A stretch of 64,000 bases of DNA from Aminobacter aganoensis (GTDB taxonomy: Bacteria; Pseudomonadota; Alphaproteobacteria; Rhizobiales; Rhizobiaceae), in assembly GCF_014206975.1 (NCBI RefSeq), contig NZ_JACHOU010000002.1, positions 62,001 through 126,000 of the forward strand, given 5' to 3'. Position numbers and translations under genes: made by a program. Below the pieces are notes generated by a model. It was not told the origin of the DNA. It worked only from the letters and a program-made list of their open reading frames with translations, and made no database searches. This document shows positions 1,958 to 8,390 of the stretch, one piece after another. The first letter of the stretch is position 1. The number at the start of each line of letters is the position of its first letter.

Positions 1958-2842
1958 ATGTCGGGCTCATGGATGACGACCCGCGCATGGCTGCTGATGC
2001 TGCCTTTGCTTGTGGTCATGGTTTCAGTCATCGGCTGGCCCCTCGTCGACACCGTTCGTCTGTCCTTCACCGACGCCAAGCTCGTCGGCACCGAGGGCAA
2101 CTTCGTCGGCTTCGACAACTACGCAAAGATGCTTTCGGGCTCGAATTTCCAGCGCACGCTGGTGACGACGACCTGGTTTGCGGTCATCTCCGTCGCCGCG
2201 GAGATGGTACTGGGCGTTCTTGCCGCCTTGTTGCTGAACCAGCAGTTCCGTGGCCGCACGCTGTTGCGTGCGCTGATGATCCTGCCATGGGCGCTGCCGA
2301 CGGTGGTCAACGCCACGCTGTGGCGGCTGATCTACAATCCCGAATATGGCGCGTTGAATGCCGCACTGACGCAGATCGGCCTCCTCGACGCCTATCGCTC
2401 CTGGCTCGGCGAACCCAACACCGCGCTCGCCGCCCTCATCGTTGCCGATTGCTGGAAGAATTTTCCGCTCGTCGCGCTCATCGCCCTGGCCGCCTTGCAG
2501 GCCGTGCCGCGCGACATCACCGCGGCATCTATGGTCGATGGTGCGGGGCCGCTCGCGCGCTTCCGCTTCGTCATCCTGCCCTATCTCGTCGGGCCGCTTC
2601 TGGTGGCGCTGGTGTTGCGCACCATCGAGGCATTCAAGGTCTTCGACATCATCTGGGTGATGACCCGCGGCGGGCCCGCCAATTCGACCAGAACGCTGTC
2701 GATTCTCGTTTACCAGGAGGCATTTTCGTTCCAGCGCGCCGGTTCCGGCGCATCGCTGGCGCTGATCGTCACCTTGCTGGTCACGGTCCTGGCCGTCGCT
2801 TATGCCGCCCTGGTCAGGAAGGCTGCGGGGAGTACCGCCTGA
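1958..2842 (+). CDS. ABC sugar transporter permease (MalF/UgpA type)
   Basis: This is a 294-residue inner-membrane protein with about six hydrophobic segments. The cytoplasmic EAA loop that docks on the ATPase is visible near residues 190-215 (ITAASMVDGAG...RFVILP). It pairs with the next permease to form the channel of the importer. Its stop codon overlaps the start of the next gene (TGATG), which indicates translational coupling. Confidence 0.9.
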   Translation: MSGSWMTTRAWLLMLPLLVVMVSVIGWPLVDTVRLSFTDAKLVGTEGNFVGFDNYAKMLSGSNFQRTLVTTTWFAVISVAAEMVLGVLAALLLNQQFRGRTLLRALMILPWALPTVVNATLWRLIYNPEYGALNAALTQIGLLDAYRSWLGEPNTALAALIVADCWKNFPLVALIALAALQAVPRDITAASMVDGAGPLARFRFVILPYLVGPLLVALVLRTIEAFKVFDIIWVMTRGGPANSTRTLSILVYQEAFSFQRAGSGASLALIVTLLVTVLAVAYAALVRKAAGSTA

Positions 2843-3687
2843 TGGAACGCAAAAGCCCGCTCTTCACTGTCTTCGTCTACGCATCGGCGCTTCTGCTGGC
2901 GATCGTGATCCTGGCGCCCGTGCTGTGGCTGTTCGTCATGAGCATTTCGCCTGCCGCCGATCTTTCGGCCAAGCCGTTGCGCTGGTGGCCGCAGGAAGTC
3001 GACTTCTCGCGATACGCGATGCTGCTGTCGACGGCCGAAAACAGCGCGGGTGCCGCCTTTGTCGCCTCGCTGTGGAACAGCCTGAGGATCGCCGGCATGG
3101 CAACGATTGCAGCGATCGCGCTGGCCATCCCGGCCGGCTGGGCGGTGTCGCGCACGCCTCAGGTTGGCTGGTCGCTGTCGGTGGTGATCGCCACCTACAT
3201 GCTGCCGCCGGTGGCGCTGTCCGTCCCACTGTACATGGGCCTTGCCTGGCTCGGCCTGCTCAACAACATCTTCGGCCTGGCGCTCGTCTACCTGACCATC
3301 CTTGCGCCGTTCACCACCTGGCTGATGAAGTCGGGCTTCGATTCCATACCGCGCGAAATCGAGTCCGCCGCGATGATCGACGGCGCCAGCCTGTTCCAGA
3401 CATTGCGTATCATCACCTTGCCGCTGGCAGCGCCCGTGATGGCGACGTCGGCACTGTTTGCGCTGCTGCTTGCGTGGGACGAGTTCTTCTATGCACTGTT
3501 GTTCACGTCGGACCTGCGCGCCAAGACGCTGACAGTGGCCATCGCCGATCTCGCCGGCGGCCGCGTCTCCGACTACGGGCTGATTGCCACGGCGGGCGTC
3601 CTGGCCGCGCTGCCCCCGGTGCTGATCGGCCTGGTCATGCAGCGCGCCCTGATTTCGGGGCTGACCAGCGGCGGCGTGAAAGGATGA
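2842..3687 (+). CDS. ABC sugar transporter permease (MalG/UgpE type)
   Basis: The second permease has 281 residues. It has an N-terminal membrane segment, a periplasmic loop, then five more hydrophobic segments. The EAA loop (IESAAMIDGAS...IITLP) lies near residues 175-195. The start ATG at 2842 overlaps the stop of the preceding permease, and its own stop overlaps the start of the SIS-domain gene, so the three are one translational block. Confidence 0.9.
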   Translation: MERKSPLFTVFVYASALLLAIVILAPVLWLFVMSISPAADLSAKPLRWWPQEVDFSRYAMLLSTAENSAGAAFVASLWNSLRIAGMATIAAIALAIPAGWAVSRTPQVGWSLSVVIATYMLPPVALSVPLYMGLAWLGLLNNIFGLALVYLTILAPFTTWLMKSGFDSIPREIESAAMIDGASLFQTLRIITLPLAAPVMATSALFALLLAWDEFFYALLFTSDLRAKTLTVAIADLAGGRVSDYGLIATAGVLAALPPVLIGLVMQRALISGLTSGGVKG

Positions 3688-4706
3688 CCATGACCCCACA
3701 AAAGACCAGGCCCGCCGGGCTCGTGGCGATCGACCGCGAAATGGCGCGCCAGTATGGCGATGCGCTGGCATCGTTTGCCGAAGCCTCCGAGACGGCGGCC
3801 AGGGTTGCCGCATCCCTGGCCAGCACGGGGCAGTTGCTGCTGCTCGGCATGGGCGGTTCGCATGCGGTGGGCCGCGCAGTCGAGCCGCTCTATCGCGCCC
3901 TCGGCATCGATGCCATCGCGCTGCCCTTGTCGGAGCAGCTCGGGCAGCCGCTGGCACTTGACGGCCGCACAGTGCTGATGACCTCGCAATCGGGCGAAAG
4001 CGCCGAAGTCCTGCGCTGGTTTGCCGAGACCGGCGGAAATTCCGAGACATTCGGACTGACGCTGGAGGCAGGCTCCTTCCTGGCCCGCACCGCGCCTTCG
4101 CTGGTCGGCATCGGCGGCACCGAGCTCGCCTTTGCGGCAACGCGAAGCCTGACCGTCACCCTGGCCCTGCATCTCGCCATCCTGGCCGCACTTGGCGAAC
4201 ACCCGAGCGGGGCGCTCGTCGCGCTCCAGGCACCTGAAGTCGTCGACATCCGTCCGGCTCTCGCCGCGCTGGCGAACGTCGCTGCCGTCGTCACGTCGGG
4301 ACGCCGCCTGCAAGGCGTTGCCGAAGCACTGGCCCTCGGCCTGACGGAGTTGTCGCGGCGGCCGTGCTTCTCGCTTGAAGGCGGGCAGCTTCGGCATGGG
4401 CCGATGGAAATGCTCGGCCCCGACATCGGCGTCGTGCTGTTTCGCGGCGACGATCCGACCGCCGCTCTCGTCACGGCCATGGCAGTGTCGGCAATCGACA
4501 CCGGAGCACCAGTCGTCATCTTCGATTCGTCCGCAAAGAGCCCGGTAGCCGGTGCAGTCACGCTTCGGTTCAAGCCGGCCACCGGCATGGCCGCCATCTT
4601 CGCAATGCTGCCCACGGCGCAGCGCCTGATGATCGCATTTGCCGATGCCCGCGTCGATGATGCCGGCACTCCGGTGCGATCGACCAAGATCACCCGGAGC
4701 GAATGA
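3684..4706 (+). CDS. SIS-domain sugar isomerase / deaminase
   Basis: The 340-residue protein has two SIS (sugar isomerase) halves. Phosphosugar-binding motifs include GMGGSHAVG (residues 56-64) and SQSGESAE (101-108); a later EGGQLRHGPMEM motif matches the catalytic region of GlmS-isomerase, NagB-II and FrlB-type deglycases. By family it would convert a 6-phospho amino sugar, or deglycate a phosphorylated fructosamine. It starts at ATG 3684, overlapping the permease stop; an ATG at 3690 is possible. With the neighbouring kinase it suggests import, phosphorylation and isomerisation of an amino sugar or Amadori compound, but which one cannot be decided by eye. Confidence 0.85.
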   Translation: MTMTPQKTRPAGLVAIDREMARQYGDALASFAEASETAARVAASLASTGQLLLLGMGGSHAVGRAVEPLYRALGIDAIALPLSEQLGQPLALDGRTVLMTSQSGESAEVLRWFAETGGNSETFGLTLEAGSFLARTAPSLVGIGGTELAFAATRSLTVTLALHLAILAALGEHPSGALVALQAPEVVDIRPALAALANVAAVVTSGRRLQGVAEALALGLTELSRRPCFSLEGGQLRHGPMEMLGPDIGVVLFRGDDPTAALVTAMAVSAIDTGAPVVIFDSSAKSPVAGAVTLRFKPATGMAAIFAMLPTAQRLMIAFADARVDDAGTPVRSTKITRSE

Positions 4707-5636
4707 ATGCGGCCACTTGCGGTGATCGGCAACGTCAATGTCGACCTCATTCTCGGACCGACCGCCCCCTGGCCGAAGGCCGGCACGGAAATCATCGTCG
4801 ACCACGACGAGTTGCGCGTCGGCGGCCAGGCGGGCAATTCGGCTCTTGCGTGGGAGGCGCTCGGCGTTGACTTCGAGATTGCGGCGAATGTCGGCAACGA
4901 CCAGTTCGGCCTGTGGCTGCGGACCGCCTTTGGCCGCCGCGCGGCGAAGTGGGCCATCTCTTCCGAGCGGACGACGCTGTCAGTCGGCATCACACACCCC
5001 GACGGCGAACGGACGTTCTTCACCACGCATGGGCACCTGCCCCGTTTCAGCCTCGCCGACACGCTTTCGGTGCTCGACGGCAAGCGACTGTCCGGCGGCT
5101 ATGCCCTGCTGTGCGGCTCGTTCCTGACCACTGACCTCGCCCAAGACTACGACGCCATTTTCGACTGGGCGCATGGCCACGACATCTCGGTCGTTCTCGA
5201 CACTGGCTGGCCGCCGGATGGCTGGACCGAAGCGAACTGTGCAACGACCCGCACCTGGCTATCCCGCTGCGATTGCGCGCTGCTGAACGAAGTCGAAACA
5301 ACGACGCTGGCTGGCCGCGACAATCCAGCAGAGGCGGCACGGACGATCTGGTCCAGCATGCGCAAGGGGGCCGTCGTGGTGGTCAAGTGCGGACCGGATG
5401 GCGCCATTGCCATCGGTGCCGACGGCGAGCTGGTGTCGGCAGGCGCCCCAAAGGTGAAGGTCGTCGATACCATCGGCGCCGGCGACGTCTTCAACTCGGC
5501 TTTTCTCGCGGCCCTTGCCAAGGGCCAGCCGCTCGCCACCTGCCTCGCTGCTGGAACGCAGGTTGCATCGCGCGCGATCTCCACCTTGCCCCGCAGCTAT
5601 GGCCACTTGCCGGATTTCAGGGACGACATTGCATGA
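4707..5636 (+). CDS. PfkB-family carbohydrate kinase
   Basis: This 309-residue ribokinase-fold kinase has the N-terminal GNVNVD signature and the C-terminal DTIGAGD motif; Asp260 in GAGD is the expected catalytic base. It begins directly after the stop of the SIS gene and its own stop overlaps the ATPase start. Family members phosphorylate sugars such as fructose, fructoselysine, ribose or nucleosides. The likely role here is phosphorylation of the imported sugar before the SIS enzyme acts. Confidence 0.88.
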   Translation: MRPLAVIGNVNVDLILGPTAPWPKAGTEIIVDHDELRVGGQAGNSALAWEALGVDFEIAANVGNDQFGLWLRTAFGRRAAKWAISSERTTLSVGITHPDGERTFFTTHGHLPRFSLADTLSVLDGKRLSGGYALLCGSFLTTDLAQDYDAIFDWAHGHDISVVLDTGWPPDGWTEANCATTRTWLSRCDCALLNEVETTTLAGRDNPAEAARTIWSSMRKGAVVVVKCGPDGAIAIGADGELVSAGAPKVKVVDTIGAGDVFNSAFLAALAKGQPLATCLAAGTQVASRAISTLPRSYGHLPDFRDDIA

Positions 5637-6718
5637 GTGCGCTTGAAATCCAGAACATCCGCAAGAACTACGGGGCCGTCGAAACACTGAAGGGCATAGA
5701 CATTTCATTGCAGAGCGGCGAGTTCCTGGTCCTGCTCGGTTCGTCGGGTTGCGGAAAGTCCACCCTGCTCAACATCATCGCCGGGCTGGCCGAAGCGACG
5801 AGCGGCGACATCAGGATCGGCGACCGCTCGATTCTCGGCGTTCATCCCAAGGACCGCGACATCGCCATGGTGTTCCAGTCCTACGCGCTCTACCCCAATC
5901 TCAGCGTGCGCCGGAACATCGGCTTCGGGCTCGAGATGCGCAAGGTGCCGGTCGCGGAGCGCGACAAGGCCGTGCAGGAGGCAGCGCGGCTGCTGCAGAT
6001 CGAGGCGCTGCTCGACCGCAAGCCGAGCCAGCTCTCCGGCGGCCAGCGCCAGCGCGTCGCCATCGGCCGCGCGCTGGTGCGCAAGCCGCAGGTGTTCCTG
6101 TTTGACGAACCGCTTTCCAACCTCGATGCCAAGCTGCGGCTTGAGATGCGTACCGAGCTCAAGCGCCTGCACCAGATGCTGCGGACGACGGTGGTCTACG
6201 TCACCCACGACCAGATCGAGGCGATGACGCTGGCGACGCGGATCGCGGTGATGAAGGACGGCCGGATCGAGCAGCTCGGCACGCCCGAAGAGATCTACAA
6301 CCGCCCAGCCACGCTCTATGTGGCGGGCTTCGTCGGCGCGCCGCCGATGAACATCCTTGATGTCACCGTGCGCAATGGCCTGCTTGAGATTGCAGGATCC
6401 GACGTGACGATCCCGCTGCCACCGCGATATGCAACGATCGGCGACGGGACCCGCCTTTCCCTTGGCATACGCCCCGAGGCGCTCCGGCTCGCAGCCGAAG
6501 GTGCAGTCGGCCTGACGTTGCCTGCCAAGGTCGAGGTCGTCGAACTGACCGGTCCGGAACTGATCGCGACAGCTCGAATCGGCGGGCAGAAGCTGATTGC
6601 CTGCCTTGCGCCACGCACGCGTCTCGGCGAAGGTGAAAGCCGCAGATTTGCTTTCGAGGAAGAAGCACTGCATCTTTTCGATCCCACGACCGGGCTGGCT
6701 TGCGAAGGGGCGCCGTAG
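5633..6718 (+). CDS. ABC sugar transporter ATP-binding protein (UgpC/MalK type)
   Basis: The ATPase has 361 residues. Walker A is GSSGCGKST (residues 36-44), followed by a Q-loop in VFQSYALYP, the signature LSGGQRQR, Walker B LFDEPLSNLD and the H-loop VTHDQ. The C-terminal 120 residues form the TOBE/MalK regulatory region. It powers the importer encoded upstream and is the last gene of the run. ATG at 5633 overlaps the kinase stop. No clear terminator was seen after it. Confidence 0.92.
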   Translation: MSALEIQNIRKNYGAVETLKGIDISLQSGEFLVLLGSSGCGKSTLLNIIAGLAEATSGDIRIGDRSILGVHPKDRDIAMVFQSYALYPNLSVRRNIGFGLEMRKVPVAERDKAVQEAARLLQIEALLDRKPSQLSGGQRQRVAIGRALVRKPQVFLFDEPLSNLDAKLRLEMRTELKRLHQMLRTTVVYVTHDQIEAMTLATRIAVMKDGRIEQLGTPEEIYNRPATLYVAGFVGAPPMNILDVTVRNGLLEIAGSDVTIPLPPRYATIGDGTRLSLGIRPEALRLAAEGAVGLTLPAKVEVVELTGPELIATARIGGQKLIACLAPRTRLGEGESRRFAFEEEALHLFDPTTGLACEGAP

Positions 6719-6875
6719 GACACGACGCTGGGTTTCATAAGGCCGGCAATTCCTCCCCAAAAACGCGAAACTGCTTCTCACAGAATTGGCTGTCTGGCCT
6801 CTTGTGCCATCCATGCAACGAGCAGAAGTTACCCCGGTTTGCGCAGGCAGCCATGTCCTGCGCTGGATCATTGGT

Positions 6876-6924
6876 CACAGTCGGCTGGGATGGACACGCT
6901 GGAACAGCGTCAAAGCCGACGGTG
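6876..6924 (+). promoter_or_regulatory. Two-tier hairpin resembling a xanthine (NMT1-type) riboswitch aptamer
   Basis: The outer stem pairs GTCGGCT (6880-6886) with AGCCGAC (6914-6920), extended by CAC/GTG across one A-G mismatch. The inner stem pairs ACGCTG (6896-6901) with CAGCGT (6905-6910) around a GAA loop. Between them is an asymmetric internal loop, GGGATGGAC on the 5' side and CAA on the 3' side. A short two-stem RNA with a conserved purine-rich internal loop in front of a purine permease fits what I recall of the NMT1 (xanthine/urate) riboswitch class. An AGGAG at 6927-6931 follows directly, but the chosen start codon is about 120 bases downstream, so how it would control expression is unclear. 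Confidence 0.5.
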
Positions 6925-7044
6925 TGAGGAGCAGCAACGCTCGGCAAGGCCACGGGGTTCTTCGATCCACTCGGGATCATGGGCCATCGCAGCCTTGCGC
7001 GTGACGGACGGCCGCTCCCCGCGCCACATGGGAGGAAGCAAAGA

Positions 7045-8337
7045 GTGCTCGAGAAGTATTTCAACCTGAAGGAACAAGGGACGACGGTGCGCACCGAGGT
7101 GATCGCCGGCGTCACGACCTTCCTGACGATGGCCTACATCATCTTCGTCAATCCCGAGATCCTGTCGTCGACGGGCATGGACCGCAACGCCGTGTTCGTG
7201 GCCACCTGCCTTGCCGCAGCGCTCGGCTCGCTGATCATGGGCCTTCTGGCGAAGTGGCCGATCGGCATGGCGCCGGGCATGGGCCTGAACGCCTTCTTCG
7301 CGTTCACGGTGGTCGGCGCGATGGGCTTTTCCTGGCAGCAGGCGCTGGGCGCCGTCTTCATCTCGGGCGTCATCTTCCTGCTTTTGACCGTCAGCGGCGT
7401 GCGCAGCTGGCTGATCGCCGGCATCCCGCACTCGATGCGTAGTGCGATCGCCGCCGGCATCGGCCTGTTCCTCGGCATCATCGCGCTGAAAAGCTCGGGC
7501 ATCGTCGTTGCGAGCCCCGCAACGCTGGTGACGCTGGGCGACCTCAGCCAGACCGGAACGCTCCTGGCTATCGCCGGCTTCTTCATCATCGCCGCCCTCG
7601 ACGCACTCAAGGTGCGTGGCGCTATCCTGATCGGCATCCTGGTGATCACCGTCGCCTCGATGGCGCTCGGCGTCAGCCAGTTCAACGGCATCGTCTCGAT
7701 GCCACCTTCCATCCTGCCGACCTTCCTGCAGCTCGACGTCGTCGGCGCCCTGCACGCGGGCCTTGTCCATGTCATCCTGGTGTTCGTGCTGGTCGAGGTG
7801 TTCGACGCAACCGGAACGCTGATCGGCGTCGCCAAGCGGGCCGGGCTGATCGAGCCAGGCAAGCCCAATCGCCTCGGCCGCGCTCTGCTGGCCGACAGCA
7901 CGGCGATCGTCGCCGGCTCGCTGCTCGGCACCAGCAGCACCACCGCCTATGTCGAGAGCGCCTCGGGCGTCCAGGCCGGCGGCCGCACCGGCCTCACCGC
8001 ACTGGTCATCGGCGTGCTGTTCCTCGCAGCGCTGTTCTTCTCGCCGCTGGCTGGCTCGGTGCCGGCCTATGCGACCGCTCCCGCCCTGCTCTATGTCGCC
8101 TGCCTGATGATGCGCGAGCTGGTCGAGGTCGAATGGGCCGACATCACCGAGGCAGCTCCTGCGGCGCTGACCGCGCTGATGATGCCGTTCACCTATTCGA
8201 TCGCCAACGGCCTCGCGTTCGGCTTCGTCACCTACGCAGCGCTCAAGCTCCTGACCGGACGCCCCGGCGAGGTGCACATGGCAACGTGGCTGGTCGCGGC
8301 GCTGTTCATCATCCGCTTCGCCTTCTTCCCGCACTAA
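7045..8337 (+). CDS. NCS2/AzgA-type purine (hypoxanthine/guanine) permease
   Basis: The protein has 430 residues and about 12 hydrophobic segments, and starts with the AzgA-type sequence LEKYFNLKEQGTTVRTEVIAG. The glycine-rich GMAPGMGLNAFFAF segment and the TSSTTAYVESASG segment are hallmarks of AzgA/PbuG-like transporters, which are nucleobase:proton symporters of the inner membrane. GTG 7045 was chosen as start because GGAGG lies at 7031-7035; an in-frame ATG at 6979 would add 22 residues that do not look like the family. It is a single-gene transcript closed by a terminator, with the aptamer-like hairpin upstream. Confidence 0.85.
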   Translation: MLEKYFNLKEQGTTVRTEVIAGVTTFLTMAYIIFVNPEILSSTGMDRNAVFVATCLAAALGSLIMGLLAKWPIGMAPGMGLNAFFAFTVVGAMGFSWQQALGAVFISGVIFLLLTVSGVRSWLIAGIPHSMRSAIAAGIGLFLGIIALKSSGIVVASPATLVTLGDLSQTGTLLAIAGFFIIAALDALKVRGAILIGILVITVASMALGVSQFNGIVSMPPSILPTFLQLDVVGALHAGLVHVILVFVLVEVFDATGTLIGVAKRAGLIEPGKPNRLGRALLADSTAIVAGSLLGTSSTTAYVESASGVQAGGRTGLTALVIGVLFLAALFFSPLAGSVPAYATAPALLYVACLMMRELVEVEWADITEAAPAALTALMMPFTYSIANGLAFGFVTYAALKLLTGRPGEVHMATWLVAALFIIRFAFFPH

Positions 8338-8350
8338 GGCTCGACAAAGC

Positions 8351-8390
8351 ATCGCCGGAGGCTGCGCCAGCGGCCTCCGGCGATTTTCGT
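8351..8390 (+). terminator. Rho-independent terminator after purine permease
   Basis: A perfect 12-bp stem (8351-8362 with 8373-8384) encloses a 10-base loop and is followed by TTTCGTT. It lies 13 bases after the permease stop and between convergent genes. Confidence 0.75.

Follow-up and report, generated by a model that had tools for sequence, protein, structure and literature searches.

The azgA locus

The window analysed here is the whole stretch of DNA, 64 kb in length, from a genome of 5.76 Mb, and the features found in and around the azgA leader are collected in Table 1. The product of azgA matches Pfam family PF00860, and the hairpin considered below lies in the presumed leader of this purine-permease gene, as the preliminary description had stated; the name AzgA is taken from that description, and NCBIfam assigned no family to the product. 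The genes upstream (2802-6718) encode a GlmS-like SIS-domain protein, a PfkB-family kinase and an ABC-transporter ATPase with a MalK-type OB domain, and they may form a sugar-uptake cluster.

Table 1. Positions of the azgA gene and of leader and flanking features in the window
Feature	Position	Strand	Basis or remark
GAAACTGCTTC box, possible regulator site	6767..6777	+	Upstream of the putative promoter; putative function
Putative promoter CTTGTG-N17-AGAAGT	6801..6829	+	Conservation and spacing
H1, first leader hairpin	6841..6863	+	Near the presumed 5' end of the transcript
H2 hairpin	6876..6924	+	P1, internal loop, P2 and weak outer pairs
H3, 5' arm	6928..6935	+	Contains most of AGGAG; predicted partner 7011-7018
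H3, 3' arm (C-rich tract)	7011..7018	+	Duplex energies; CTCCC 7015-7019 could pair with the Shine-Dalgarno sequence instead
Shine-Dalgarno sequence GGGAGG of azgA	7030..7035	+	Invariant in nine Aminobacter
azgA, purine permease, GTG start	7045..8337	+	PF00860, E 2e-52; upstream stops
Probable intrinsic terminator of azgA	8351..8384	+	Strong hairpin; 15-pair stem followed by TTTCGTT

The CTTGTG element of the putative promoter is invariant in nine Aminobacter genomes and its spacing is near constant, 241-248 nt when counted from CTTGTG through the last base of the GTG; a consensus promoter scan found no promoters and did not recover this candidate. If this candidate is correct, transcription would start near H1. 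Variants of the upstream box occur in 27 of 118 azgA upstream stretches (some genomes counted twice), the nine Aminobacter included, and the region before azgA carries a GAAAC(A/T)GCTTC-like box ahead of a CTTG element in several Rhizobiales. The start of the box lies about 34 nt before CTTGTG in three Aminobacter genomes (G000, G005 and G009) and about 23 nt before it in the other six, a difference of one helical turn; the box is a possible activator site. At the presumed 5' end of the transcript, the sequence GUUUGC (6837-6842) is complementary to GCAAA located after the Shine-Dalgarno (SD) sequence (7038-7043). Both are invariant in the nine Aminobacter, and a pairing between them that closes the leader is possible, with no covariation signal.

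Translation start of azgA

The GTG codon lies at 7045-7047, and both this codon and GGGAGGAAGCAAAG are invariant in the nine Aminobacter. The azgA frame is open between an AGGAG sequence (6927-6931), found directly after H2, and the GTG, which has an SD sequence of its own; the preliminary description had made both points, and both were borne out. In the window species, the last azgA-frame stop before this interval is a TGA at 6925-6927 that overlaps AGGAG, and the first ATG, GTG or TTG in frame after it is an ATG at 6979. The upstream azgA-frame stops of the nine species are found at -24, -42, -81, -108, -111 or -120, depending on the species. Since the positions of these stops vary and those two sequence elements do not, azgA most likely starts at GTG 7045 and not near AGGAG, and the open frame upstream of the GTG in the window species is most likely incidental. 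This comparison of sequences settles the start of the gene more firmly.

Structure and conservation of hairpin H2

The nested stems and the asymmetric internal loop that had been described at 6876-6924 can be read directly from the sequence. Stem P1 comprises 7 bp (GTCGGCT 6880-6886 with AGCCGAC 6914-6920) and stem P2 comprises 6 bp (ACGCTG 6896-6901 with CAGCGT 6905-6910) closed by a GAA loop, the internal loop between them being formed by GGGATGGAC (6887-6895) on the 5' side and CAA (6911-6913) on the 3' side; in addition, CAC 6876-6878 can form weak outer pairs with GTG 6922-6924. The region is GC-rich and folds strongly from composition alone. The stability of the single sequence, assessed on an 86-nt stretch, was ordinary (z -0.64), with 57 of 200 dinucleotide shuffles as good. 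As the lone H2 sequence folds no better than chance, the case for this hairpin rests on comparison.

Two covariance models of H2 were used, R2, built from nine Aminobacter leaders, and R1, which also includes a row from Pseudaminobacter (L054). The azgA gene is present in nine of ten Aminobacter genomes, and R2 located H2 in the azgA leader of the same nine (E 6e-8 to 5e-4), which match by construction; five of them had a second, weak R2 match each (E 0.16-0.67). The tenth genome (G007), which is 81% complete, gave no match for azgA and a weak one for H2 (E 0.41). When 6719-7050 was used as a DNA query, nine of the ten Aminobacter genomes matched at least part of it, and four, among them the window genome, matched over most of the query. 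G007 gave a short DNA match, with no azgA, and G008 gave none, yet the leader is present in the latter genome.

The consensus fold of H2 in the nine species was well supported by RNAalifold (z -4.22, none of 200 shuffled alignments as good), and the same was true with seven of the nine species (z -3.04, 1/200). The input was an ordinary MAFFT alignment made without regard to the structure, and the null distribution consisted of 200 column-shuffled alignments; both P1 and P2 were recovered. H1 also gave a marked signal in the nine species (z -3.45, 0/200). Compensatory changes in both stems, which had been put forward as a test of the hairpin, were found among the Aminobacter orthologues: 4 of 15 pairs, two in each helix, had both partners altered, and pairing was maintained in 94.8% of the alignment cells, against 26-44% when the alignment was slid. 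These counts, from which the Pseudaminobacter row was left out, come from a hand-fitted alignment of a small, related sample in which several rows are near-identical sister species. Three MAFFT alignments (A2, A3 and A4) had placed the P2 arms wrongly and were excluded from the counts. Among the measures compared with shuffles, the double-change cells (0/500), the covariation score (3/500) and the paired percentage (10/500) stood out; the number of double-change pairs (reached in 49/500) and of pair types (383/500) was not unusual. With the Pseudaminobacter row added, four of the five measures lay beyond all 500 shuffles and pair types were reached by 25, but we do not lean on these values because R2 does not recover that row alone.

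The elements of the hairpin differ in their degree of conservation. With the Pseudaminobacter row included, identity between clades was 0.69 for the 5' side of the internal loop and 0.68 and 0.69 for the P2 arms, against 0.49 and 0.43 for the P1 arms, 0.10 for the end loop and 0.04 for the 3' side of the internal loop. In the nine species, the 5' side opens with GGGAUGG, GGGGUGG, GGGUGG (one species) or GGGAAGG. However, the GGG is paired with the 3' side in the folds of the G001 and G004 leaders, so an open internal loop is not general. When the initial 110 nt of the leader was considered, mean pair probabilities were 0.90-0.99 for P1 and 0.74-1.00 for P2 in all nine species. H2 would form first during transcription. 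In the full leader with 30 nt of the gene, P1 remained at 0.86 or above in six of the nine species and was weak in G006 (0.56), G001 (0.14) and G008 (0.02), in which other pairings win in the calculation. The comparative evidence supports the conservation of H1 and H2 as RNA folds whose positions do not shift, and H2 is probably a selected RNA fold.

The AGGAG sequence and a predicted long-range helix, H3

The preliminary description had remarked, as an oddity, that AGGAG is not next to a standard start codon. The observation holds, and the likely explanation is a different one, namely that AGGAG is part of one arm of a predicted long-range helix. In the window species, the segment 6925-6935 is predicted to pair with 7008-7022 at a mean probability of 0.82, and the helix, H3, was predicted in all nine Aminobacter species (mean pairing probability 0.53-0.89). 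This pairing exceeded that of all 60 local shuffles in seven of the nine, two of 60 shuffles being as high in G008 and in G009. AGGAG is probably no start signal, and on the predicted folds a role as the arm of a helix is likelier for it than one in ribosome binding.

The comparative support for H3 is partial. When strands were swapped between species, G009 gave a clear result, its own H3 partner yielding -18.7 kcal/mol against -7.2 to -13.2 kcal/mol with the other eight. The own partner was the best of the nine, ties counted, in three species only (G005, G004 and G009). The 3' arm of G005 surpassed the own partner in six species, by at least 2.8 kcal/mol in five and by 0.7 kcal/mol in G001, and in G000 five further 3' arms did so as well. 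Strand swapping therefore speaks clearly for H3 in G009 only. RNAalifold did not detect H3 on the MAFFT alignment of nine species (z -0.17, 79/200) or with seven species (z 0.02, 91/200), possibly because the arms were misaligned.

The C-rich tract directly before the SD sequence can pair either with AGGAG or with the SD sequence, and the two pairings are mutually exclusive. H3 was much the more stable in all nine species (-17.6 to -26.8 kcal/mol, against -6.4 to -9.9 kcal/mol for the SD-blocking pairing); in the leader ensembles, pairing of the tract with the SD sequence occurred at 0.00-0.33 and the SD sequence was 28-83% unpaired. Because H3 is far stronger than the SD-blocking pairing, an off state would need a trigger. 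The nine species share no upstream sequence that competes for the H3 arm: the competitors were the 3' arm of H1 in four species (-9.1 to -12.8 kcal/mol), a P2 stretch in three (-8.3 kcal/mol) and others in two.

Distribution of H2

In the window genome, R1 matched the leader and three other places more weakly (E 0.27, 5.7 and 9.5); the first of the three was rejected as a second H2 copy, as it sits inside a 608-aa ORF. Among 394 genomes of the family, R1 at E <= 0.01 found eight Aminobacter and one other genome (G207, E 0.00998), the match of which lies inside open reading frames, including one with 147 aa, and was not accepted. Among 397 genomes of the order, R2 found the window genome and gave matches in two more (E 0.003 and 0.005), which both lie inside open reading frames and were likewise rejected. 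The family and order searches were run with stricter filters, which lose weak matches.

R2 was also applied to 69 of 104 azgA loci from outside Aminobacter (some genomes represented twice) and gave 22 matches at E <= 10, the best at E 0.067; only one of these, at L061 (E 8.7), was within 450 nt upstream of azgA. An H2-like fold was seen by eye in the Pseudaminobacter leader and was set aside, since R2 did not recover it. The leader of Mesorhizobium zhangyense (L053/L020) was loosely similar by eye and was dropped, and we make no claim for H2 outside Aminobacter. As far as the family and order were searched with these filters, the H2 structure appears to be restricted to the genus.

Relationship to the xanthine riboswitches

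The preliminary description assigned H2 to the NMT1 RNAs, and membership of this xanthine class (RF03054), also as a degenerate variant, was considered. The two nested stems, the large internal loop and the location upstream of a purine transporter are in keeping with this assignment, as is the occurrence of NMT1 RNAs in alpha-, beta- and gammaproteobacteria, some of them before transporter genes (PMC7373994). However, Rfam gave no gathering match across the whole 64-kb window, and none of its 4227 families reached E <= 10 in 6719-7080. In the whole genome, RF03054 (named Xanthine) matched only two places, both elsewhere and below threshold, the better with 16.4 bits against a cut-off of 36; none of 14 control genomes exceeded the cut-off, so the sensitivity of this search is without a positive control. 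Twelve same-family azgA loci searched at E <= 1 yielded only a tRNA, one partial tmRNA-like match and a weak match to a CRISPR repeat, and nothing of the xanthine class.

The structure of H2 also differs from that of the class. In the published structure (PMC8266621), the xanthine riboswitch has P2a and P2b split by a bulge, J2, with G35 paired to C11, and its junction bases are G7-A8-A9-G10-C11, A39-U40 and G35. H2 has no J2 bulge, its P2 consisting of six uninterrupted pairs, and its internal loop lacks the J1 bases, with no GAAGC in the 5' strand GGGAUGGAC and no AU in the 3' strand CAA. The NMT1 identity of H2 is largely refuted, and we regard membership of the class, even in a degenerate form, as extremely improbable.

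A proposed genus-specific folded leader

We lean towards the explanation that azgA has, in Aminobacter, a folded 5' leader peculiar to the genus, made up of H1, H2 and the predicted long-range helix H3, which likely tunes azgA translation through access to the SD sequence. The structure of this leader is supported; its regulatory role is what we infer. The predicted H3, for which there is partial comparative support, would hold AGGAG in a pairing with the C-rich tract that immediately precedes the true SD sequence. With the tract on AGGAG, the SD sequence would be free and azgA translated; with the tract on the SD sequence, the latter would be hidden and azgA would be off. H2, which would form first during transcription, may be the place where a ligand, a protein or the rate of folding biases this choice. 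If the leader is indeed regulatory, it would be a recently evolved leader of a single genus with a built-in SD decoy, and a small case of post-transcriptional control of purine uptake gained outside the known purine riboswitch classes.

A narrower version of this explanation is that the leader represents a new purine-sensing riboswitch class, with H2 as the aptamer and H3 and the SD sequence as the expression platform. The position before a purine permease, the 5' side of the internal loop being better kept than P1 and the end loop, and the mutually exclusive pairings of the C-rich tract are consistent with such a class. Nevertheless, it would comprise a single gene in a single genus, the P2 arms are kept as well as the 5' side of the loop while the 3' side is not, the loop is partly paired in two species, and H2 showed no connection to H3. 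We consider the new class improbable. It is equally doubtful that the azgA leader senses a ligand at all, and unlikely that the purine-rich loop of H2 (GGG(A/G)UGG or GGGAAGG, with GGGUGG in one species) binds a purine or a related signal while the SD-mimic AGGAG competes with the SD sequence.

The leader might instead be a passive structure, the helices of which stabilise the mRNA and keep the SD sequence open with no switching. This has a substantial chance of being correct, although we rate it below an even one, and it accords with the greater stability of H3 over the SD-blocking alternative in every species and with the strong folding of the region from its composition; however, a passive role would need neither the kept purine-rich internal loop nor the kept spacing. 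That the stretch acts as an operator in the DNA or as a short coding leader, and not as an RNA fold, is very unlikely. P1 is a 7-bp inverted repeat, but its arms differ between species and stay complementary, unlike those of a fixed operator. In the window species a 24-codon ORF ends at AGGAG, but a conserved leader peptide was rejected because the start, frame and stop of this small ORF are not kept among the nine species. The length of the leader is near constant in the nine Aminobacter while the reading frames differ, which indicates an RNA rather than a peptide.

Comparison with known systems

The structured mRNA leader is a known kind of element, and the azgA example was neither matched by Rfam 15 nor described in the titles and abstract openings of the papers found on azgA, Aminobacter and purine-permease riboswitches. 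Like the NMT1 RNAs, it belongs to the 5' leader of a purine-linked gene in proteobacteria and has a small hairpin of two stems, the internal loop of which is large and asymmetric; control of translation via access to the SD sequence has been suggested for both. It differs from them in that H2 has no covariance-model match, no division of P2 into P2a and P2b, no J2 bulge, and neither GAAGC nor AU in the junction, its P2 being uninterrupted. Translation-controlling mRNA leaders with alternative SD and anti-SD pairing constitute a general kind to which the azgA leader may also be compared, as it has a C-rich tract before the SD sequence that can pair with the latter or with an upstream SD-like purine tract. 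In contrast to such leaders in general, that of azgA is confined, as far as searched, to one gene in one genus, and by prediction its open form prevails by a wide margin.
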